The notes under the pieces were generated by a model. The model was not told the origin of the DNA. It did no database searches and saw nothing but the letters and a program-made list of their open reading frames with translations. From contig NZ_BMKD01000003.1 of the NCBI RefSeq assembly GCF_014643835.1, positions 310,001 through 374,000 of the forward strand: a stretch of 64,000 nucleotides of DNA, written 5' to 3'. Origin of the DNA: Mucilaginibacter rubeus (lineage in GTDB: Bacteria > Bacteroidota > Bacteroidia > Sphingobacteriales > Sphingobacteriaceae). Both the position numbers and the translations under genes were made by a program. Below are positions 27,593-37,784 of the stretch, piece after piece. Position 1 is the stretch's first letter. Each line of letters opens with the position of its first letter.

Positions 27593-28504
27593 TTAGTGGA
27601 TAGGCAGGACTCTGACAAATGTACCAGACGCATTAAAAATTAAAGCGTATTTGGTATTGTTTGATGTAATCAACACAACGTAACCTTGCAGGGTTCCGCC
27701 GGGGCTTTCAGAAAATGCTTTATCAAATACGTAGCCCGGATAAGTAGCAGTAAGATAAGTGGTAATAGCAGCCGGTAAGTTAGCTTCAGCTACTACAGCA
27801 TGTTTTAAATCGTGTTTTTCTATCTGAATACGTTTTACAAGTTTGCCTGCCGCGGTTACCGTTGTTGAGTAAAGTACCCCGTTCTGGCTTATCAAAATGT
27901 ATACGTTATCAGGTGCGATAGAGGCATGCAACAAAGTATCTGTTGGATAGGTTGTTGAAAAATAGCTGCTTACAGCAGCAGGAAGGGCCGAAATAGCAAT
28001 GGTATCGCGGTGTTTACTGTCACGATTATCAAAGAATCCGCCTAAGTGCCATCCTGGTCCTTTAAGGTCAACACCTTCGCGTTGCTCAAGGATGCTTACA
28101 AACGTACCAGCAGCAGTGAATTTGAGGCCAACCAAAGCGCTGTTATATTTGATAACTACAATGTAGTTGATAACTGTTTTAGTACTATCAGTAATGGAGT
28201 ATGCTTTTTTGAATGTATAACCGCTGTAATTAGCTGTAAGGTAAGTGCCGATAGCTGTAGGTAATGTGCTAAAAGCAACGGAGTCTTTGGTATCATGCTT
28301 GCCATAGCAGCCAACCATATAAACGCTGTCGGTAGTAGTTCCGGACGACGCAAGGCTAATAGCGATGGCGCCGGTTGATGTGACGGCTGATGACGAAACG
28401 CTGCCGGCCGAAGCTGATTTTGAAGCGTTTTCCTTTTTACATGATGCCAGGCCGATTATTGTGCCGACCATCAATAGTGAGGCGTAAAATGATTTCATTT
28501 TCAT
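27593..28504 (-). CDS. PepSY-like (DUF2874-type) repeat lipoprotein
   Basis: 303 residues with a lipoprotein signal, Cys22 in GLASCKKE. The mature part has three tandem copies of a roughly 70-80 residue unit. Each has a helix of the form (A/T)LPxAIxxYLxxxYPGYxFxKA and beta strands of the YVVxIxxNxxxxxLxFxAxGTFV type, near residues 75-145, 165-235 and 240-303. This is the putative-beta-lactamase-inhibitor-like PepSY fold that is common in Bacteroidota periplasmic proteins. No enzymatic residues are evident; a binding or inhibitory role is possible. It stands alone between two hairpin elements. Confidence 0.75.
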   Translation of the reverse strand: MKMKSFYASLLMVGTIIGLASCKKENASKSASAGSVSSSAVTSTGAIAISLASSGTTTDSVYMVGCYGKHDTKDSVAFSTLPTAIGTYLTANYSGYTFKKAYSITDSTKTVINYIVVIKYNSALVGLKFTAAGTFVSILEQREGVDLKGPGWHLGGFFDNRDSKHRDTIAISALPAAVSSYFSTTYPTDTLLHASIAPDNVYILISQNGVLYSTTVTAAGKLVKRIQIEKHDLKHAVVAEANLPAAITTYLTATYPGYVFDKAFSESPGGTLQGYVVLITSNNTKYALIFNASGTFVRVLPIH

Positions 28505-28643: not shown

Positions 28644-28727
28644 GTAGAGACGCATCACATGCGTCTTGCGCATGAAGGTATTTAATGCGCAAATTTGCTG
28701 TCGGAGACGCATGTGATGCGTCTCTAC
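28644..28727. repeat. 23-bp perfect inverted repeat with nested hairpins
   Basis: Arms 28644-28666 and 28705-28727 are perfect complements built from the palindromic AGACGCATCACATGCGTCT core; a second TGCGCA pair lies in the loop. It is downstream of the last gene of the six-gene operon and upstream of the PepSY gene, so it may end the operon transcript or be a dispersed intergenic element. Confidence 0.85.
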
Positions 28728-28744: not shown

Positions 28745-29365
28745 CTAATTACATCTGGCTAAGCCATCGGTGCTGGAAGCATCAGCAGGTTTGATGATCA
28801 GCGCTTTTTCAAAAAAAGGTTTTGCTTCCGATTTTTTTCCAGCCATAAGCATCGACCAGGCCAGCATATGGTTGCCGTCATAATCAAAAGGATAAAGCGT
28901 TACTACTACCCTGAAAAGCTTAATAGCGGGTTCGTATTGCTTACGGTTATAATAAATTACGCCGGCCCAATAATTGGCCTGTGTGTTTTGAGGGTCTATT
29001 TTCAGGATAGCAAGATATTGTTCCAGCACTTTATCCCAGTTTTGCAAAAAGGAGAGCGGCTTTATATAGCCAAACTTAGCCTCAATAGCGCCGGGCTTCA
29101 GGTTAACTGCTTTTTGATAATAGGTTTGCGAAGCAGTGTAGTTTTTATTGAGGTAATGAAGCCAACCCAGCCTGATGGCTATCTCATAATTATTTTCCGA
29201 ATAGTAGGGGTAAATATCGGCAATGGCAGCAACGTAGTTTTTGTTTAATTCATTGGTATAACTGTTGTGAAAAGCTTTTTGAAGCACCACATTTGTCTGT
29301 GCCTGCAATTGTGCTGCAAATACAAATAAAAAAATGGGAATAAAGGTCTTCTTTAAAATTTCCAT
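28745..29365 (-). CDS. Exported TPR protein, last gene of the PqqD/ATP-grasp operon
   Basis: 206 residues; signal peptide ends near QLQAQ. The rest is four to five tetratricopeptide repeats, with AAIADIYPYYSENNYEIAIRLGWLHY and QTYYQKAVNLKPG type helices (key motifs LGWLHYLNKNY and YWAGVIYYNRKQYEPA). Periplasmic, a likely scaffold for a partner protein. Its start overlaps the end of the upstream gene by 13 bases, so translation is coupled. No catalytic motif is visible. Confidence 0.8.
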   Translation of the reverse strand: MEILKKTFIPIFLFVFAAQLQAQTNVVLQKAFHNSYTNELNKNYVAAIADIYPYYSENNYEIAIRLGWLHYLNKNYTASQTYYQKAVNLKPGAIEAKFGYIKPLSFLQNWDKVLEQYLAILKIDPQNTQANYWAGVIYYNRKQYEPAIKLFRVVVTLYPFDYDGNHMLAWSMLMAGKKSEAKPFFEKALIIKPADASSTDGLARCN

Positions 29366-30531
29366 GTTATACCTAACGTAACAGAGTTTTGGTTATAGTT
29401 AACAGCACGGTAAATGTCTGTTTTCTTTTCATAAAAGTAATTTAAATTCAATAAGGCATGGTTACCTAACTGATAAAAAACGCTTTCACCGCATTTAAAT
29501 TTTGTAGGATCGATGGCGTTATACACATAAAGCCCGTCTGCATCCAGGTAATCATCCTGGTTGCCAAAAGTAGCGGCTGTTTCCAGCCACGTTTTGTTTA
29601 ACACTTTAAATCCCACCGACTGGCTATAAATGAAATGCGTTACTCCGCTTAAATTCAGTACCGATGCCCTGCTTGTGGTGTATAAATTCAAGTTTCCCAG
29701 TGGATAAAAATCCACTTTGGCATCATATTGTTTTAAGGTTTTATTAATGAGTTTGCCCAAATTAACATCGCCCTGCAAATCAATGTAGCGGGTATCATAT
29801 TTTATTCCTAACAGCCCAAGGTTACTTTGGTAAATATTGCTCCGGTAGCTGGTGTGTAAATAATGGTACGCGCCAAGTAAATTGATGTTTTTAGTCAAAG
29901 AATATTTCGCTTTAGCATAATATTCAAACTGGCGGTCGGTTTTGCCTGTTTGGTTAATGTAATCAATATAGCCCGATCTGAATATATTCTGTTTGAAAAA
30001 CATAAATGATTGATCCAACTGCAAACGCCACGATAATCTTAAACCGATACCCGCGCGTTCAAAAAAGCCGTTGTCGCGTTCGTGGTTATTCGGCAATTTT
30101 ATGCCGCTTTCTAAAACCGCATCAGTTAAACCAAAGGGTGATAACTTGATAGCACGCAGGGTTGCTGTGTCTAAATGCGATGCATTGTAAAACGCGGTGT
30201 TATTGTTGTTGATATAGGTGTTGCAGTAGTAAGCATACAAATATGCAGTGACATTTTGGGGCTCTTTAAGTAAAACCCGGTTAAACTGATAGATGGCCGC
30301 TTTATAGTTACCGGTAAGCATATAAGCATACCCGGCCTTAAAGCGCAAGGTAGGAGAGTCTACACTTTTAGCAACCGATTGATTTACAAACCTGATAAGT
30401 TGTTTCCAGTTGCCGGCATTGTACAATTGTTCGGCGGTACTATCGGCCGTGGCAAGTTTATTATCTTGTGCACGGGTTACAAGAGCAGCAAATAGCAAGG
30501 CAAAAAGTATGGTTAATTTTCTGTACTCCAT
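29353..30531 (-). CDS. TPR plus beta-barrel outer-membrane protein
   Basis: 392 residues; signal peptide ends near VTRAQ. Residues about 25-110 form TPR helices (FKAGYAYMLTGNYKAAIYQF, split as AGYAYMLTGNYKAA). From about 150 on, alternating beta strands run to a C-terminal NSVTLGITWKF, ending in aromatic Phe as outer-membrane barrels do. It is 19 bases overlapped with the transporter/peptidase gene upstream. It may be the outer-membrane exit or anchor of the system encoded by the operon. No specific family is recognised. Confidence 0.75.
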   Translation of the reverse strand: MEYRKLTILFALLFAALVTRAQDNKLATADSTAEQLYNAGNWKQLIRFVNQSVAKSVDSPTLRFKAGYAYMLTGNYKAAIYQFNRVLLKEPQNVTAYLYAYYCNTYINNNNTAFYNASHLDTATLRAIKLSPFGLTDAVLESGIKLPNNHERDNGFFERAGIGLRLSWRLQLDQSFMFFKQNIFRSGYIDYINQTGKTDRQFEYYAKAKYSLTKNINLLGAYHYLHTSYRSNIYQSNLGLLGIKYDTRYIDLQGDVNLGKLINKTLKQYDAKVDFYPLGNLNLYTTSRASVLNLSGVTHFIYSQSVGFKVLNKTWLETAATFGNQDDYLDADGLYVYNAIDPTKFKCGESVFYQLGNHALLNLNYFYEKKTDIYRAVNYNQNSVTLGITWKF

Positions 30532-32669
30532 TGTGCTTCAATATGCTGACCGTTTGTATTTATAATGAGGGCTTGCAGGCTGCTATGATCTACAAAAATG
30601 GTTGCCTCTGTAAGGGACAATGTTCTACCTGCAATTTCCTGGTATTGTTTGGATACAATGTTTAACCCTGTTTTTTTTAACTGTATCCCGCTTTTATATT
30701 TTATGCTGATGAACCGGTAAAAAGGCGCAATAAAATCCTGCAGCCAAAGCAATGTTTTGTTATGGGTAAGCGGTACCGGGAACTCATCATTAGCCGGGCT
30801 ATACCCGGCATCGTTAAAAATAACTTTATATGCGGCAAGGTAAAAATAGTGGAGGAGCGACGTTTTATCGCCATAAAAGCTGGTGAAGTAAAACATAGTT
30901 CCATTGTTAATAAAATAAGCAACGGCACCTGTTGTTTTGCAGTAGATGTATGACTGTCCTAATTCATCTTTAAAAACTTCCCATTCTTCGGTTGAGCCGT
31001 TTCCGTTAACTAATTTAGATACGAAGCCCGGTTGCAGGTCGAATGCTTTTTTGAGTGGCGTATTGATTTCGGGGTTGCTTATTAATTCGTTTTCATTTGG
31101 GATATTGTAGCTTACAAAGATGGTTTGATCAGCTTTTTTGGTAAAATAATAGGCGAGCGGATAAGGCAGTGTTTTAGATCCTATATAAGGCGTAGCCTGC
31201 AACTGGAAATGCAAATGCGGCTCGGGCGACCGACCCGAATTACCGCAGAAACCCAGCAGATCACCTTGTTTTACGATATCGCCGGGTTTAACTTTTACAG
31301 AGTTTTTTTTGAGGTGCGAGAGTTTGGAATAAAGCCCTTCGGCGTGGCGTATCACTACGGTGTTCCCCCAGTTTTCCTTCAGGTTTTCCTCGCCTATGTC
31401 GTTATCTTCTACATGGTTTACAACCTGTTCTACAATGCCGTCGCCGCAGGCCAGTACCGGCTTATTGAAACAATAAAAATGTTCAGGAAGGGTACCGGGA
31501 TGCTGAAATGTTTTTTGTTCATCATCCGTAATCACAAAATCAAGCGCCTGGCCCCATTCGCCTTTGTGGGTAATGCTACCATTATAACCCTGCGAAACCG
31601 TCCAATAGCCCATAAACGGCAAATTGAGCCTCATGTATTTCAGATCGTTCAGCCTGTTTTGCAGGTTTAAAATATGATAAAGATTTTTTTCGGGCGAGTA
31701 ATGCTGTGCTATGGTTAACTGCAATTTGGGGTGATGACCGGTTAACTTTAAAAAATAAAGCAGGCTGATATTAAGCACGCAAAACGGTAATGAAAAAACA
31801 GGCAGCGCATGCAAGGCCATGAGTGTGGTAAGGGCATTAATGAGTATGAAACCCAAGGGGATGCAAAGAATTGCCAGCAGGTAAGAGCGTAACGATGGGA
31901 TGGTGAAAAAGCTGCTGATGGCCATTGAAGCCATCATTAAATTGGCACCAAGGTGGTAATAGCTGATACCCTCTGGGTAGGTATTTGTGATGTTGTTAAA
32001 CCCGCAGGCCGTTAAAAAGCTAATGATAAGCAGGCTGAATGCAATGCGCGAATGCACAAGTATCCCTATAGCAATAAGCATTCCGGTTATGATATTATGC
32101 TGAAATAGAATTGCGCTCAATGAACGGAAAAATAAGCTCATCAGTTTTGGTAACGTTGTGGCAAGATAACCTTCGGCGCCGGCCAGGTTACCCGGGCCAG
32201 TGTAAATTTCTTCGAGCAGGGAGCTGCTTTTTTGTGATAATCCAGTGTTGAAGATGCTGTTGGATGCCAGCAGTACAAGCCAGAAAACCAGGATAAATGG
32301 CAGTGAAAGTATAGGTAAACCCGGTTTACTCATGCGCTTTGACATAATGATGGTAGCAAGCACTACCAGGCAACAGGCAACCGCCAGCCAGGTCACAAAC
32401 ATGACGTTAACCTGGAAAAAAGCACCAAATGCTATCCCTGATAATAAACAGTTAAAGCTGTAAATTCCTGCCCGGTAATCTTCGTTATCCTGTTTTGCTG
32501 ATTTTGTTATCAGCAAAGAGAAAATGACGCAACTCAACCCTGCAAAGCCGGATACCGGGTTGAAAAATGATACCAGCAGCAAAATAACCCCCAATACCCG
32601 GTTTTGAGAAAAAAACAGAACCGAATAGGAATTGATGACGGTTTTTATGAATGCTGGAATTTGCTTCAC
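30513..32669 (-). CDS. Urea-transporter-like membrane protein fused to an M23 metallopeptidase domain
   Basis: 718 residues. Residues about 15-310 hold roughly ten hydrophobic segments with urea-transporter-family traits (FFNPVSGFAGL near 35-45, FNCLLSGIAFG near 72-82, and a second half with GISYYHLGANLMMAS). Residues about 350-500 are an M23/LytM peptidase: His368 and Asp377 in HKGEWGQALDF and His487 in PHLHF supply the zinc ligands, with His452 in LSHL. About 210 further residues have no recognised domain. Its start overlaps the decarboxylase stop by four bases (ATGA). The fusion could export or import a small polar molecule while working on peptidoglycan. Function is unknown. Confidence 0.85.
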   Translation of the reverse strand: MKQIPAFIKTVINSYSVLFFSQNRVLGVILLLVSFFNPVSGFAGLSCVIFSLLITKSAKQDNEDYRAGIYSFNCLLSGIAFGAFFQVNVMFVTWLAVACCLVVLATIIMSKRMSKPGLPILSLPFILVFWLVLLASNSIFNTGLSQKSSSLLEEIYTGPGNLAGAEGYLATTLPKLMSLFFRSLSAILFQHNIITGMLIAIGILVHSRIAFSLLIISFLTACGFNNITNTYPEGISYYHLGANLMMASMAISSFFTIPSLRSYLLAILCIPLGFILINALTTLMALHALPVFSLPFCVLNISLLYFLKLTGHHPKLQLTIAQHYSPEKNLYHILNLQNRLNDLKYMRLNLPFMGYWTVSQGYNGSITHKGEWGQALDFVITDDEQKTFQHPGTLPEHFYCFNKPVLACGDGIVEQVVNHVEDNDIGEENLKENWGNTVVIRHAEGLYSKLSHLKKNSVKVKPGDIVKQGDLLGFCGNSGRSPEPHLHFQLQATPYIGSKTLPYPLAYYFTKKADQTIFVSYNIPNENELISNPEINTPLKKAFDLQPGFVSKLVNGNGSTEEWEVFKDELGQSYIYCKTTGAVAYFINNGTMFYFTSFYGDKTSLLHYFYLAAYKVIFNDAGYSPANDEFPVPLTHNKTLLWLQDFIAPFYRFISIKYKSGIQLKKTGLNIVSKQYQEIAGRTLSLTEATIFVDHSSLQALIINTNGQHIEAQWSTEN

Positions 32670-34021
32670 TTGTTGTTATTTAAATGAGCGGGTACTAACT
32701 CTGGTTCGGCAGTATATTCCAATGTTTCGTTTTTGCGGATGAGATGCGTACGCAACTTCTCGTCTATCAACACAACAGCAGGCCTTAAAGTGATGAATTG
32801 CATCCATTGGGTCATGTTGTAAGCGCCAACCTTGTGCACAACAACCTGGTCGCCGGGATTTAGCAGGGGCAGGTTAATGCTTTCCCTGATCACATCAATG
32901 TTCATGCAAAGCGGCCCGTATATCACTGTGTTTTCGGTATGTGCTGCAAAATCATTAGCAGGGCTTACCTGGTGTTCATACCAAAAAGATGTAAACAGGA
33001 TATTGACCCCAAAATCAACTATGACAGCGCTTTTGCCATTGGCTAAACGTTTGTTGGCAATAACAGTGCCCAGCAGGTAACCGGCATCATCTATTAAAAC
33101 GCGCCCGCTTTCCAATATCAGCAGCGGCAGGTCATCATTGGCAAAGCCAAAATTGAGCAAAGCCGAAGTTATGACTTCAGCAAAGTCGTCAACCGTCGGC
33201 ACGGTATCATTCCCCGGCAGGTAAGCACCTTTTAGTGTATTAGTTGAGGGGAAACCGCCTCCCAGGTCAAGATATTCTATTTTATGATTAAGTTCGGTCT
33301 GGCAGCGAACAGCCAGTTCGGCCAGTTTATTAGCTGCTATACCATAAGCATCGGCAGAGAGCATATAGGTACCGATATGGCAATGCAGGCCCACCAATTG
33401 CAGACTTCCCGAGCCTGTGATCTTTGTAACCGCCGACCAGGCTTCTCCATTTTCATAGTTAAAACCAAAGCGGTCCCAAAGTGGGTAAACGCCGGTATCC
33501 ATATTTATACGGATGGCCACACGTGGCTTATTGGCCATGTTTTTACTTAAGGTAAGCAGCAGGTTAAGCTCATCAAAATGATCAATATGGATCAGCGAAT
33601 CATGCTCGATGGCCAACTGCAGATCGTTGAGAGATTTGCCCGGTCCGTTAAAAATGATCTTGTTGCCCGGTACGCCATTGCCCAATGCTTTACGGTATTC
33701 AAAGCCCGAAACAACCTCCGCCCAACTGCCTTCCTGGTGAAAAATCTGACAAACAGCATTGAGGTAATTGGTTTTATAGCTCCATGCAAATTGTACCTTT
33801 GGGTAGCGGGTGCTAAAAGCGCGGTATGCTGCCCGGTAGTTTTTGCGGATTTGTTTTTCGGACAATACAAACACCGGCGAACCGTAGTTTTCGATCAGGC
33901 TTTTAACCGAAACGCCATCGATGCTTTTAACGGGCTGCACACCGGTGCGGGAGCCGAATTTATTAAGGGCACCGGCCTGTAGTTTTTTTATATATGGTTT
34001 CTCGTATGGCAGCTTTTCCAT
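32666..34021 (-). CDS. Type III PLP-dependent decarboxylase (LysA/ornithine-decarboxylase fold)
   Basis: 451 residues. The PLP Schiff-base lysine is Lys83 in WSYKTNY. GLHCHIG (211-217) and YLDLGGGFP mark the barrel, and GPLCMNID puts the active-site Cys at 372. The family decarboxylates meso-diaminopimelate, ornithine, arginine or carboxynorspermidine; the substrate here is open. An unusual N-terminal extension of about 40 residues has a YEKPYIKKL segment that resembles a peptide-leader recognition motif. It lies nine bases after an ATP-grasp gene and four bases overlap the transporter, so it is an accessory-pathway enzyme rather than the housekeeping lysA. Confidence 0.85.
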   Translation of the reverse strand: MEKLPYEKPYIKKLQAGALNKFGSRTGVQPVKSIDGVSVKSLIENYGSPVFVLSEKQIRKNYRAAYRAFSTRYPKVQFAWSYKTNYLNAVCQIFHQEGSWAEVVSGFEYRKALGNGVPGNKIIFNGPGKSLNDLQLAIEHDSLIHIDHFDELNLLLTLSKNMANKPRVAIRINMDTGVYPLWDRFGFNYENGEAWSAVTKITGSGSLQLVGLHCHIGTYMLSADAYGIAANKLAELAVRCQTELNHKIEYLDLGGGFPSTNTLKGAYLPGNDTVPTVDDFAEVITSALLNFGFANDDLPLLILESGRVLIDDAGYLLGTVIANKRLANGKSAVIVDFGVNILFTSFWYEHQVSPANDFAAHTENTVIYGPLCMNIDVIRESINLPLLNPGDQVVVHKVGAYNMTQWMQFITLRPAVVLIDEKLRTHLIRKNETLEYTAEPELVPAHLNNNK

Positions 34022-34030
34022 CGTTATAAA

Positions 34031-35086
34031 TTATAATTCGCCAAACGCCGAGATCTGCTGAAAATCGGCGATGTCGGCAATATGGTCCCACGAATAGCGG
34101 ACAAACAGTTTGCCGGCCTGGTAATCGGCATAGGGCTCAACGGTTTCACCCATCGCTATTTTGGCCAATGCCGCAGGCTGGTTTTGGCCGGCGGCGGCAG
34201 TTAAATAAACCCATGCCGGAAATCGGGGATTAATTTCCAATATGTATAAATGTCCGTCGGCATTGCTCATGACCTCCATTTCGTAACCGCCTTTCCAGTT
34301 GCTTACGCGGGCAAAGTTGTCGGCCAGTTGGGTAAGCTTATCATCTTTAATGGTAACGCCCGCCCAGGCCTTCCCTTTATCGGTAATATAAAGCTTGCGC
34401 ATAGCCACCAAGCTGATGTTGTTGCCATTACCATCGCCAAGTGCCGCGATGTTGATTTCGTTGCCCTTGATGTATTGCTGGGCTATTACCGGCACGCCCC
34501 AGGCTGCATACAATTGATGAAAGGCTTTCAATGCCTGATCCATCGTGTATACAACATAAGCCTCATAAAACTTGCCTTTTATTACCATAGGAAAGTTGAA
34601 CTCAGCAGCCGCTTTTTTAATATCATCGGTTGTGTAAAGCTTATGGTCGGCGGGCACGTAAAAACCATTTTTTGTGCCGAAATTTTTTAGGTTCACCTTA
34701 TCTCTCAACGCCAGTTGCTGGTATGTCGGAAGATAGGTCGCAATACCCATTTGCTGCAATTGCGGCGCTATCTTTATAAAATTGAACAGCTCCGAATCAA
34801 AATTGGGGATAATGAGATGAAGCTTTTCCTGCCGGTTGATATATGCCAAACGTTCAGCGAGGGCTGCCGTACCTTCGGTGGGATAGGGGACCTGGTAAGT
34901 TTTATTTACCTGATCCCGTAGGTAAATCCCGGGCTCCAGCGACTCGTACGACAGTCCAATTATGCGCAAACCATCTCCAAAATACTCTTTTAAAGAACGG
35001 ATGACCGCCATCCCCGGCCCCGGATTGTCATTGGCATTGAGCCCGGTAACAGCAATACATAAATCAGCGTACTTGTTTGGCATCAT
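34031..35086 (-). CDS. ATP-grasp ligase, carbamoyl-phosphate-synthase-like
   Basis: About 351 residues from the ATG at 35086, just past the PqqD-like stop codon; an earlier in-frame ATG at 35131 would overlap that gene. An N-terminal pre-ATP-grasp Rossmann domain (CIAVTGLNAND) is followed by the ATP-grasp fold. That fold has FPMVIKGKFYEAYVV (ATP-binding lysine and glycine-loop region) near residues 175-190 and YILEINPRFPAW near 295-305, whose Glu/Asn are metal ligands. Such enzymes join a carboxylate to an amine through an acyl phosphate. With a PqqD-like partner upstream and a decarboxylase downstream, it may ligate amino acids to a peptide or carrier; that is inference. Confidence 0.85.
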   Translation of the reverse strand: MMPNKYADLCIAVTGLNANDNPGPGMAVIRSLKEYFGDGLRIIGLSYESLEPGIYLRDQVNKTYQVPYPTEGTAALAERLAYINRQEKLHLIIPNFDSELFNFIKIAPQLQQMGIATYLPTYQQLALRDKVNLKNFGTKNGFYVPADHKLYTTDDIKKAAAEFNFPMVIKGKFYEAYVVYTMDQALKAFHQLYAAWGVPVIAQQYIKGNEINIAALGDGNGNNISLVAMRKLYITDKGKAWAGVTIKDDKLTQLADNFARVSNWKGGYEMEVMSNADGHLYILEINPRFPAWVYLTAAAGQNQPAALAKIAMGETVEPYADYQAGKLFVRYSWDHIADIADFQQISAFGEL

Positions 35087-35088
35087 CC

Positions 35089-35331
35089 TTAAATTTCGAG
35101 CAGGTTTGCTTCTTTTAGCTGCAGCATCCAATTATCCCAATCCCTGTTAAGCTGGCTTTCGCTCACTTCATACCTGCTCAGAATATCCTGCTTGATATCA
35201 TCTTCGGTTTTGCCGCTTTTCATAGCCTCAAGCAGTTTTGCCGCCATACCGTTACCGGAAAATGAATCGCCGGTGGCAGGGTTAAAAATAAACCCGTTTT
35301 CGCTGGTGGCTATGTTGCTCTTGAGTTTCAT
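35089..35331 (-). CDS. PqqD-like (RRE) peptide-chaperone domain protein
   Basis: 80 residues of the PqqD/RRE winged-helix family: an early FIFNPATGDSFSGNGMAA segment (the domain's first strands) and a helix with EDDIKQDILSRYEVS, then DWDNWMLQLKEANLL. In ribosomal peptide pathways PqqD-type proteins bind precursor leaders and deliver them to tailoring enzymes. It is the first gene of a six-gene operon with an ATP-grasp enzyme only two bases on. No precursor peptide gene was found next to it. The promoter at 35366-35397 is upstream. Confidence 0.8.
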   Translation of the reverse strand: MKLKSNIATSENGFIFNPATGDSFSGNGMAAKLLEAMKSGKTEDDIKQDILSRYEVSESQLNRDWDNWMLQLKEANLLEI

Positions 35332-35365
35332 TTTATAAGTGCAGGGTTGTTTAATTAATAAAAGC

Positions 35366-35397
35366 TAAACTTAGCAGGTTTATATGAGTTTACAAAA
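35366..35397 (-). promoter_or_regulatory. Promoter of the PqqD/ATP-grasp/decarboxylase operon
   Basis: On the minus strand TTTTG (35393-35397) is followed 19 bases later by TAAGTTTA (35366-35373), one base off the TAnnTTTG consensus. The spacing is the classical one for Bacteroidota sigma-ABfr promoters. The ATG of the PqqD-like gene is 35 bases on. Confidence 0.6.
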
Positions 35398-35403
35398 CCA
35401 GCT

Positions 35404-35781
35404 TCAGGATGCCATCAGGTATTCTATCCTTGATGCAAGCACTTCCATATCCAGCGGTTTTACAAACAAGGCATCGCATTTATAAGAATCGGCCTGTGCT
35501 TTTTTTGTTTTAAAAGCGGTTACAATAATGATAGGTACATTGCATAGCTGCTTATCATCCTTAAAGTCCCGGCAAACCAGTTCACAATCGTTATCTACCA
35601 ACAAATAATCCAGAATGATCAAATCCGGATTAATCATTTTAGCTTTATCATATATAGCATTAGGGTCAAAAGTTAAATGCACATTAAAATCGCCATAGTA
35701 CATAATGTCATCAATGACGGATAACATCCGGCTGTTTTTATCAAGTACTAAGATGGTTTTTTTATCGCCTGCTGTTTTCAT
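35404..35781 (-). CDS. Stand-alone receiver-domain protein
   Basis: 125 residues from the ATG at 35781; a longer reading to 35859 adds a hydrophobic stretch unlike the family. It is a single CheY-like receiver domain: Asp58 in IILDYLL is the phosphoacceptor, and the conserved Lys is in FVKPLD near 107. There is no output domain. It lies between the LytTR operon and the PqqD operon on the same strand, so it might be a phosphorelay element for either. The first acidic pair is reduced to LDKN, so metal binding may be altered. Confidence 0.8.
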   Translation of the reverse strand: MKTAGDKKTILVLDKNSRMLSVIDDIMYYGDFNVHLTFDPNAIYDKAKMINPDLIILDYLLVDNDCELVCRDFKDDKQLCNVPIIIVTAFKTKKAQADSYKCDALFVKPLDMEVLASRIEYLMAS

Positions 35782-35884
35782 GACTTTAAGGATTAGTGTC
35801 AATTTTAACAATATAAAGTTGAGGCTATTTAAGGGGTTGTAAAATAATGTGTCGTTCAACGCCTTTAATGTGCCGATGAATTGA

Positions 35885-36580
35885 TTATTTGTGCCAGTAT
35901 TTGATAAAATCGGTATAGTTTGTACCTACAGGAAGCTCCACATCGGTTAGTTTTACCTTGCGGTTGTGGATAGACCTGATCTGATCACGCGCTACCACGA
36001 AGCTGCGGTGAATACGAATAAACTTTGACGCAGGCAGCTTTTCAATTGCACTTTTCAATGGCATCAGTGTTAGTATGGGTTTGGCTACACCCAATATATG
36101 GATCTTGATGTAATCCTGCATGCTTTCAATATATTCAATGTCTTTGATATTGATCTTGATGAGCCTGTATTCTGAATGCACATACAGAAAGTCGCCTTCG
36201 TTTGTGGTATCGGCGTGCTTATACTGATAATAACCAATTGCTTTTTGAACTGCCGTGTCAAAGCGCAGGTTATTGATTGGTTTCAGCAGATAATCTACCG
36301 CTTCCAGTTCGTAACCTTCATATGCGTAATTTTTGTAGGCAGTGGTAAAAATGATCATTGGTTTATCAGTCAATGATTTTACCAGGTCGATACCGGTAAT
36401 ATCAGGCATGTTAATATCTATAAACAGCACATCTACCTTGTTCATTTTCAGGTATTCCCCGCCCGATATGGCATCCTCAAAAGTATTAACCAATGTTAGC
36501 GCGGGATATTCAGCTACATATTTTTCAATTATTTGAAGGGCCAGCGGCTCGTCATCAATAGCTACACATTTTAATTGCAT
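35885..36580 (-). CDS. LytTR-family response regulator
   Basis: 231 residues from the ATG at 36580 (MQLKCVAIDDEPLAL). The receiver domain has Asp55 in LFIDINMPDITG and the conserved Lys in YLLKPI. The C-terminal LytTR DNA-binding domain includes FLYVHSEYRLIKI, IEYIESMQDYIKIH and FIRIHRSFVVARDQI. It is ten bases behind the histidine kinase and forms a two-component pair with it. Target genes are not known. Confidence 0.92.
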   Translation of the reverse strand: MQLKCVAIDDEPLALQIIEKYVAEYPALTLVNTFEDAISGGEYLKMNKVDVLFIDINMPDITGIDLVKSLTDKPMIIFTTAYKNYAYEGYELEAVDYLLKPINNLRFDTAVQKAIGYYQYKHADTTNEGDFLYVHSEYRLIKINIKDIEYIESMQDYIKIHILGVAKPILTLMPLKSAIEKLPASKFIRIHRSFVVARDQIRSIHNRKVKLTDVELPVGTNYTDFIKYWHK

Positions 36581-36590
36581 TATAAACAGT

Positions 36591-37784
36591 TTAAGCGTTA
36601 ATCTCCAGTTCAACAATGAAATTGCCATCGGCTATGCTAATGTCAAGCCGGTGTTTGTTAGGATAAATATGTTGCAGGCGCTGGCGGTTATTGGCAATGC
36701 CAATCCCTTTCCGTTCGGTGGCAGGTCGTTTTTCGAAAATGGTATTTTTGCAGATGAACAGCATTTGGTTGCCGTTTACCCTTAAGCAGATATTAATAAC
36801 TGATGGCTGGTGTTTACTTACGCCATATTTAAAAACGTTTTCAATAAAGGTCATCAGTATCAGGGGCGGAATTTTTTGATTGTCAATCTTGCCCGAAACT
36901 TCAAAATCAAGCTTTGTTTTTTTGCCGAGTCGCAGGCGTTGCAGATCGATATAATCGTTGATACAATCAACTTCATTTTGCAGTAAAACAAAATCCTCCG
37001 TTACCTCATCGGTTACATAGCGCATGATGTTAGAGAGTTTCATGATGCTCTCGGAAGTATGCTCGCTATTGGTAACCGATAAGGCATAAATATTATTCAG
37101 CGTATTGAATAAAAAATGAGGATTGATCTGGGCTTTAAGAAAAGAGAGTTCGGCATGAGCTTTTTCGGCCTCGGCACGGGTAACCATCTGCTCGGTAAGC
37201 TGCCATTTTTGAACCGTGGCAATGGCAACGCTCAGTCCCATTACAATGATAAAAATAAATAAGCCTACCATATCAATATTACCGGATTGATGAATAAAAA
37301 TAATGCGGTTGGTGGGTTTAAGGCTGGGGTCCTGCATCCGCAGATCTTCGTGCGGCAACGGGCCAAAAGGCATGTTTTGCTGATTAGGTGCTGAGCTGTC
37401 AATGCCCGTAAGCGTAATTTGCGGCCCTATAGGCTGTGGATTAGGGGCTGTTGTTGCTACAGGTTTATTCCCTTTAACAAGGTTGTGAAGGAGCAGGTTA
37501 TCAAAAGGCTGCAAAAAGTAAACAAAGCCTGAAAGTAATAGCACAATAAGCCCATACCAGACATATCTTTTACGGAACACGAACTTTGGCACCAGATACC
37601 AGGCGTTCAGGTAAAACATAAATATATAGGTGAGACAAAACAGCCAGTAGTAAGGCGAAAACAGGACGGTATAGGTGCCGGCACTGCTTTGCTGTGTGCG
37701 GTTCATGAATAATAGCGGGAACCCTAAAAACACAAGCCAGCCTGCAGCATGAATGAAAAAAGTGGTTGCTTTTGAGCGGATCAT
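36591..37784 (-). CDS. LytS-type (His_kinase family) sensor histidine kinase
   Basis: 397 residues. Four membrane segments (about residues 10-30, 40-65, 75-95 and 175-195) flank a Pro/Gln-rich periplasmic loop. The phospho-accepting His is in KAQINPHFLFNTLNNIYAL, and the HATPase region has ENVFKYGVSKH and GIGIANNRQRL. It is the kinase partner of the LytTR regulator. An unusual leader with two hairpins and a promoter lies upstream (37854-37969). The signal sensed is unknown. Confidence 0.92.
   Translation of the reverse strand: MIRSKATTFFIHAAGWLVFLGFPLLFMNRTQQSSAGTYTVLFSPYYWLFCLTYIFMFYLNAWYLVPKFVFRKRYVWYGLIVLLLSGFVYFLQPFDNLLLHNLVKGNKPVATTAPNPQPIGPQITLTGIDSSAPNQQNMPFGPLPHEDLRMQDPSLKPTNRIIFIHQSGNIDMVGLFIFIIVMGLSVAIATVQKWQLTEQMVTRAEAEKAHAELSFLKAQINPHFLFNTLNNIYALSVTNSEHTSESIMKLSNIMRYVTDEVTEDFVLLQNEVDCINDYIDLQRLRLGKKTKLDFEVSGKIDNQKIPPLILMTFIENVFKYGVSKHQPSVINICLRVNGNQMLFICKNTIFEKRPATERKGIGIANNRQRLQHIYPNKHRLDISIADGNFIVELEINA

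Follow-up and report, generated by a model that had tools for sequence, protein, structure and literature searches.

The PqqD-family protein encoded by the first gene of a six-gene operon in Mucilaginibacter rubeus is, by sequence, a discrete RRE of the lasso type. It very probably clamps the N-terminal tail of the operon's own decarboxylase, in the way that leaders are gripped by the RREs of lasso and LPP pathways. We did not find any description of an RRE that holds a tag on an enzyme of its operon instead of a maturing peptide. The likely task of the operon is to make and transport a small compound of the amine type. We give nearly an even chance to the wider reading that it forms a biosynthesis and export unit coupled to the membrane and scaffolded by the RRE.

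The operon and its conservation

Genes A to F are six ORFs, all on the minus strand, that span positions 28745..35397 of the window (the whole 64-kb stretch of M. rubeus DNA that was analysed). The features are as follows.

35404..37784, minus strand: neighbouring receiver protein, LytTR regulator and histidine kinase (ORFs and family models)
35366..35396, minus strand: Bacteroidota-type promoter-like site TTTG-N19-TAAGTTTA upstream of A (regex scan)
35089..35331, minus strand: gene A, discrete RRE (PqqD family, PF05402), 80 aa
34031..35086, minus strand: gene B, ATP-grasp ligase (PF15632/PF02655)
32666..34021, minus strand: gene C, AR-fold PLP-dependent decarboxylase, nearest to N-citrylornithine decarboxylase by sequence
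33923..34021, minus strand: leader-like N-terminal tail of C, residues 1 to 33, conserved in 121 aligned orthologs
33989..34006, minus strand: YEKPYI (YxxPxI), residues 6 to 11 of C, candidate RRE-binding motif after a published one (PMC13381572)
33959..33961, minus strand: Lys21 of the C tail, invariant (121/121)
30513..32669, minus strand: gene D, UT channel domain, M23 metallopeptidase and C-terminal beta-rich part (family models and fold matches)
29353..30531, minus strand: gene E, presumed outer-membrane barrel with weak TPR and, by eye, a signal peptide (sequence)
28745..29365, minus strand: gene F, TPR protein (over the cut-off) with signal peptide (by eye)

The six genes of the initial annotation are real ORFs, and when the ATG at 35086 is taken as the start of B, its overlaps of 4, 13 and 19 bp and gaps of 2 and 9 bp were reproduced exactly (A/B, +2; B/C, +9; C/D, −4; D/E, −19; E/F, −13). 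The near-perfect promoter that it reported held only in a modified form: a sigma-70 scan gave 14 sites versus 18.8 expected, which is not above chance, but a Bacteroidota-type site, TTTG-N19-TAAGTTTA, starts 65 bases before A. Counting both strands, the 64 kb contain four relaxed and two strict sites of this kind. The last base of the site upstream of A departs from the Bacteroidota promoter consensus, TAnnTTTG. In other loci, the receiver, LytTR and histidine kinase genes often, though not always, adjoin the operon.

The same genes are found together repeatedly across Bacteroidota, and the operon is therefore far more than a chance co-location. C has A and B on its upstream side in 116/117 loci with enough sequence, D lies downstream of C in 95/95, and an F profile match follows in 92 of the 95 loci with more than 5 kb on that side. 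At one locus (L111), 54 bases from the end of its contig, C adjoins a dnaA gene and neither A nor B is present. Genera carrying the operon include Mucilaginibacter, Pedobacter and Hymenobacter, which have cultured strains. Plasmid searches with C and D gave distant relatives only, none above 60% identity, and no plasmid match of D covered 80% of the query. Literature searches for the gene combination returned no paper, in agreement with the initial annotation, which recognised no described system with this order.

The RRE and the decarboxylase tail

The leader-binding domain proposed for A is supported by a PqqD match over the cut-off (PF05402, 8.5e-10). Among solved lasso RREs, A is nearest to TbiB1 (5v1u/5v1v; E = 7.6e-13), followed by 6jx3 (2.6e-9), and it can be aligned with TbiB1, TfuB1, 9x90 and 9x8z, the last two being PbaB1 and LppB according to PMC13381572. 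In our reading of the alignments, LppB residues N33 and D70, which hold the Pro and Tyr of the ligand, correspond to N27 and D64 of A; Asn27 is present in 115/116 rows (the other being a gap) and Asp64 in 110/116. Judged by sequence, A is thus a lasso-type RRE with the Asn and Asp of the YxxP pocket, resembling TbiB1, FusB1/TfuB1, PbaB1 and LppB in both respects. In 12 genomes hand-picked from 34 with the UT-M23 protein, A was the only PqqD-family protein at E ≤0.001 in seven, and a search with an A profile gave one match in 11.

The tail of C has the consensus [Y/F]ERPxIxKLNxGxMNKFG in 121 aligned orthologs. It is predicted to be disordered (pLDDT block means of 50, 41 and 60 over residues 1 to 30), and its mean column identity is 0.73 over residues 3 to 23 versus 0.74 over residues 34 to 440. 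YxxPx[LVIFA] occurs in 116 of the 121 tails and FxxPx[LVIFA] in the remaining five; the motif published for ligands of discrete lasso-type RREs is [Y/W]xxPx[L/V/I/F/A] (PMC13381572). The operon therefore resembles lasso and LPP systems with YxxP/WxxP leaders in its ligand motif but differs in that the motif is carried by an enzyme of 451 aa, at its N terminus. Family models run on isolated tails gave nothing significant.

The two sides of the presumed contact were compared in 132 loci. The C6/A64 pairs were Y/D in 116, F/Y in 12 and F/H, F/F, Y/N and Y/S in one each, where Y/S is a masked row and at least one identical locus pair is counted twice. The contacting Asp of A is thus also absent where the tail Tyr is Phe. 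The joint change from Tyr to Phe and loss of Asp was probably a single evolutionary event; many independent switches were ruled out by the tree.

The tail might instead be a substrate, presented by A and acted on by B and/or D through a putative aminoacylation of Lys21 or a cut near KFG. C would then be its own carrier, much as in a RiPP, or an enzyme activated by proteolysis. Lys21 (121/121) and Gly23 (120/121) follow Tyr6 by 15 and 17 residues, the distance at which a leader reaches the enzyme that works on it: in published leaders the W/Y is at −15 (PbaA) and −16 (LppA) relative to the core, and the same source suggests that the leader beyond the RRE contacts serves modifying enzymes (PMC13381572). 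In addition, BtrK, a member of FigC's published clade, decarboxylates carrier-bound glutamate (PMC7857480). The invariance may, however, be due to nothing more than docking to B or D, and we regard modification of the tail as unlikely, at about one chance in four.

Up to 3 kb from the core, with the core genes themselves left aside, no precursor-like ORF of 18 to 130 aa was common to four or more loci. The recurrent small ORFs were rejected as precursors, being only a CspA-like gene (in Pedobacter-type loci), the gene for the receiver, and frames that overlap other genes or run antisense. Neither a lasso B2 protease nor an asparagine-synthetase-like cyclase was recognised among recurrent annotated neighbours. 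In 395 genomes, in some of which the best 20 or fewer first-look candidates were scored, a tail profile gave at least 35 strong matches, all in frames of 449 to 496 aa and, among the matches listed, only in the decarboxylase, as well as at least three weak matches at E values of 0.003 to 0.01. Among the matches listed, the genomes with the tail were identical to those with the UT-M23 protein (34/395). As no precursor was found and the tail occurs only in UT-M23 genomes, the RRE most likely docks an enzyme. The proposed leader-binding function is thus borne out as to the domain, but no precursor was found near the core, and the best-supported ligand is the C tail. These results make it improbable that this is a true RiPP system with its precursor encoded elsewhere and the tail as decoy or regulator, even though RREs are known from RiPP pathways and ATP-grasp is used as one RiPP marker enzyme (PMC12710340, PMC7470986).

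Ligase, decarboxylase and channel-peptidase fusion

The enzymes named in the initial annotation were confirmed at the family level. B is an ATP-grasp ligase (PF15632, 1.1e-9; PF02655, 4.2e-6) whose matches to PRK12767 models are under their cut-offs; K185, E284, E286, E299 and N301 are invariant in a 37-row alignment (numbered on the 366-aa ORF starting at TTG 35131). C matches amino-acid decarboxylases (PF02784, 9.9e-31; PF00278, 1.1e-13), and the AR fold, PLP Lys and catalytic Cys are all present. It was rejected as diaminopimelate decarboxylase (LysA; 228.3 bits versus an equivalog cut-off of 297.9), and its score with the model for N-citrylornithine decarboxylase (FslC/FigC) is also under the cut-off (214.2 bits versus 500).

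C has the same fold as the AR-fold enzymes FigC/FslC, SbnH, AcsE, MccE and BtrK, which form one published clade with DAPDC and D-ODC. Its nearest solved structure is 7kh2, FigC being the nearest solved relative, and it shares with FigC-type enzymes the PLP Lys, the catalytic Cys loop and possibly a conjugated substrate. It differs in its own GPLCMNID loop and TQW motif, its leader-like tail, its scores under both cut-offs, and its partnership with an ATP-grasp and an RRE. The butirosin set BtrI/BtrJ/BtrK (carrier, ligase and decarboxylase), in which BtrJ is an ATP-grasp, is alike in the logic of combining a ligase with an AR-fold decarboxylase; no acyl carrier protein was seen in the operon, which has an RRE instead.

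D is the proposed transporter-peptidase fusion, with a UT domain at residues 8 to 305 (PF03253, 8.6e-46) and M23 at residues 402 to 491 (PF01551, 5.6e-17). Fold matches span residues 1 to 338 and 342 to 522, the last ~190 residues lying outside them. The UT fold is present, but urea is no more than a putative cargo: the first pore position (S122) is Ser in 36/42 orthologs, the second is S17/V16/A6/T3 and thus Val or Ala in 22/42, and the yut equivalog score is 97.9 bits versus a cut-off of 274.6. Because of this altered position and low score, "urea transporter" is a fold label. Unlike dvUT, UT-A and UT-B, the channel of D continues into M23 and then a beta-rich C-terminal part.

The folds most similar to the M23 domain of D are those of murein peptidases and regulators of the LytM type. 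His368, Asp377, His452, His485 and His487 are invariant in 42 orthologs, and in our assignment of roles from sequence the zinc and catalytic residues are intact. Lys and Arg are more numerous on the side of the termini in 42/42 sequences (mean, 9.1 versus 1.5), so that by the positive-inside rule M23 and the termini most likely face the cytoplasm, which sets D apart from other M23/LytM metallopeptidases with the same His/Asp set. A subfamily that is always cytoplasmic was ruled out, as six of the seven M23-only relatives that were read appear to be exported. In related proteins from two haloarchaea and from Thermus, M23 comes after hydrophobic N-terminal segments and then RYR (by eye).

Of the outer-membrane barrel and TPR partners proposed earlier, the TPR assignment stands for F, whose match is over the cut-off; in E, TPR and barrel matches are sub-threshold (BBP2_2, E = 0.046). 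The barrel is inferred from sequence and position because no family match passed the cut-off. Many loci have a separate barrel-like gene of ~275 aa after F instead.

The initial annotation left open biosynthesis and export or envelope modification. The conserved set, ligase, decarboxylase and fusion stand, but envelope modification loses its main support because M23 most likely faces the cytoplasm. Remodelling of peptidoglycan or envelope, with M23 cutting murein, UT as an anchor and the enzymes making a murein or surface modification, would suit the LytM-type fold, the exported-looking relatives, and E and F, which look exported too. We find it improbable in view of the charge bias and of the haloarchaeal and Thermus proteins, haloarchaea not being known to have murein. 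Import of a urea-like compound for processing by B, C and M23 would fit the passive, two-way nature of UT channels and the retained pore hydroxyl, but is very unlikely given the altered second position and an ATP-grasp, a type of enzyme that joins rather than splits.

Proposed pathway and implications

In the preferred biosynthesis and export reading, A would clamp the YxxPxI tail of C, B would couple an amino acid with either an acid or a carrier, and the conjugated amino acid would be decarboxylated by C to an amine, as FigC does; we hold these ligation and decarboxylation roles tentatively, at somewhat less than an even chance. The cytoplasmic M23 of D would then cut an amide bond, freeing the product at the channel mouth or trimming the tail, and the product would exit via the UT pore, then F and the barrel protein; these last steps are rather unlikely as drawn. 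A version in which C is its own carrier, with the RRE holding the tail, the ATP-grasp charging invariant Lys21 with an amino acid, C decarboxylating that tethered residue and M23 cutting the product loose at the pore, is a long shot. If true, it would mean that RiPP recognition serves an enzyme whose tail is the site where a small molecule is made.

If docking is true, RREs extend beyond precursor peptides, and a leader-type motif can serve as an enzyme docking tag. For an RRE that lacks a precursor, the operon names a specific partner that can be tested, and it would warn genome miners that an RRE does not always mark a RiPP. It also adds the description of a six-gene machine, present across the phylum, that includes a fusion of channel and peptidase.

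Operon layout and recurrence in Bacteroidota

Six abutting genes, A to F, occupy positions 35331 to 28745 of the window. The initial annotation had reported them as an operon with overlapping or closely spaced junctions; the junctions were confirmed, and the observation as a whole proved correct and understated.

Genes of the operon in order of transcription (window 35331-28745)
A, minus strand: PqqD-family protein (family assignment)
B, minus strand: ATP-grasp enzyme (family assignment)
C, minus strand: PLP-dependent decarboxylase, ornithine/DAP type (family assignment)
D, minus strand: fusion of a urea-transporter (UT) domain with an M23 peptidase (family assignment)
E, minus strand: presumed TPR-barrel protein, signal peptide at its start (signal peptide by eye)
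F, minus strand: TPR protein, signal peptide at its start (signal peptide by eye)

For the near-perfect promoter claimed for the operon, a sigma-70 promoter scan gave no signal above chance; a promoter-like site of the Bacteroidota type lies 5′ of A. An intergenic inverted repeat seen by eye, GTAGAGACGCATCACATGCGTCT ... GAGACGCATGTGATGCGTCTCTAC, lies just 3′ of F (28644-28727). The gene after F (27593-28504), here and in a few Mucilaginibacter-type loci, encodes a PepSY-like protein whose N terminus is of the signal type.

B had matches at E values up to 1e-20 in 10 of 151 family genomes, all 10 with the cluster. With two candidates scored per genome, D had matches (E up to 1e-10) in 104 of 395 phylum genomes; the match covered UT and M23 in 34 of the 104 (in one as two frames), and all 34 UT-M23 genome regions contained A, B, and C. 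Relatives of C are encoded on at least 581 stretches in a collection of 84,980 species, represented by one genome each, and the best 80 of these, which were retained, include records from Mucilaginibacter, Pedobacter, Hymenobacter, Chitinophagaceae, and Paludibacter.

The check for conserved gene order, made on 124 loci (the window counted in, a few entries being the same or a near-identical region), showed that the set recurs elsewhere. Where more than 1.5 kb of sequence precedes C (117 loci), A and B lie upstream of it on the same strand in 116, and among the 95 loci with more than 5 kb downstream of C, D follows in all 95 and the F profile was matched in 92. As loci were picked via B, C, or D, the informative counts are those for the remaining genes. 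The barrel varies: some loci have E behind D, others a distinct barrel-like gene of ∼275 residues that follows F. In one relative's locus (L081), UT and M23 lie on two frames, meaning either that the two domains can occur unfused or that the sequence contains an error. In another (L111), a tail-bearing C adjoins dnaA 54 bases from the contig end, A and B being absent; this may reflect a mis-join.

LytTR-type regulators lie near 48 loci and histidine kinases near 32. A GNAT acetyltransferase gene, which might acetylate the operon product, occurs in 17 loci, directly before A in 15 of them; in L096 (6039-6542), it lies near the operon start. In another branch of the phylum, a T9SS-sorted FG-GAP protein, whose cluster comprises 19 loci, lies close upstream of A and may be cargo or target (type A sorted at L071:13769-14608). 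Insertions between C and D comprise IF-2B-family genes at L120:9364-10311 (Pfam and NCBIfam) and L152:9375-10292 (by eye) and, also by eye, sensor-kinase-like and PLP aminotransferase-like genes at L135:9481-12446. On haloarchaeal and Thermus plasmids (L210, L211, and L212) lie genes for membrane-anchored relatives of the M23 domain of D, although haloarchaea are not known to contain murein.

The N-terminal tail of decarboxylase C

C begins with a tail of consensus MxKLxYERPxIxKLNxGxMNKFG, ahead of a catalytic domain that starts at about residue 34. Pro9 and Lys21 are the same in every one of 121 aligned orthologs; Gly23 is conserved in 120 and Glu7 in 119, and residue 6 is Tyr in 116 and Phe in 5. 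Mean column identity is 0.73 at residues 3 to 23 versus 0.74 at residues 34 to 440. In the AlphaFold2 prediction (95 sequences), confidence averages 50, 41, and 60 over the successive blocks of residues 1 to 30, and 312 of the 451 residues scored 90 or more. Conserved yet unfolded, the tail has the appearance of a docking motif.

Its core is YxxPx[LVIFA], the motif bound by discrete lasso and LPP RiPP recognition elements (RREs; leader-binding PqqD-like domains) (PMC13381572). The nearest Protein Data Bank entries to A are TbiB1 and TfuB1, followed by 9x90 and 9x8z, described in that paper as PbaB1 and LppB, each with its leader. In the LppB complex, Asp70 forms a bond with the leader Tyr, and the kink at Pro is secured by Asn33 (PMC13381572). 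These align with Asp64 and Asn27 of A, kept in 110 and 115 (one gap) of 116 sequences, respectively.

Residue 6 of C and residue 64 of A also change together. Among the first 115 pairs, Asp64 was absent in all five Phe6 loci and present in 109 of 110 Tyr6 loci, the single exception being a masked row. Extra sampling, from the families of two Phe6 genomes (92 and 148 genomes) and from the order to which a third belongs (98 genomes), added 16 new loci. The resulting C6/A64 tally over 132 loci, with at least one identical pair of loci counted twice, was Y/D 116, F/Y 12, F/H 1, F/F 1, Y/N 1, and Y/S 1. A tree built from 130 catalytic domains requires two changes to account for its 13 Phe6 rows, and a single origin is possible; the co-change thus fits docking but is essentially a single event. 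The RRE very probably docks an enzyme, binding it by a tail that resembles a leader.

Precursor search and proposed mechanism

The RRE could instead serve a precursor with an unlike leader encoded elsewhere. No conserved precursor-like open reading frame was found near the operon loci. The tail profile, scored in some genomes on no more than 20 first-look candidates, gave 35 strong matches in 34 of the 395 genomes, all in frames of 449 to 496 residues, and three further weak ones (E, 0.003 to 0.01); the 34 are exactly the UT-M23 genomes. In 12 genomes hand-picked among them, A is the sole PqqD-family protein (E up to 0.001) in 7, and the other 5 encode one or two more.

Under enzyme docking, A would hold C by its tail; ligase, decarboxylase, and channel-peptidase would act as one unit, with the outer membrane as the exit. 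This full mechanism is our best reading, put tentatively at a little under an even chance. Its component parts are already known. Literature searches for the gene combination and the enzyme-docking use of an RRE found no paper.
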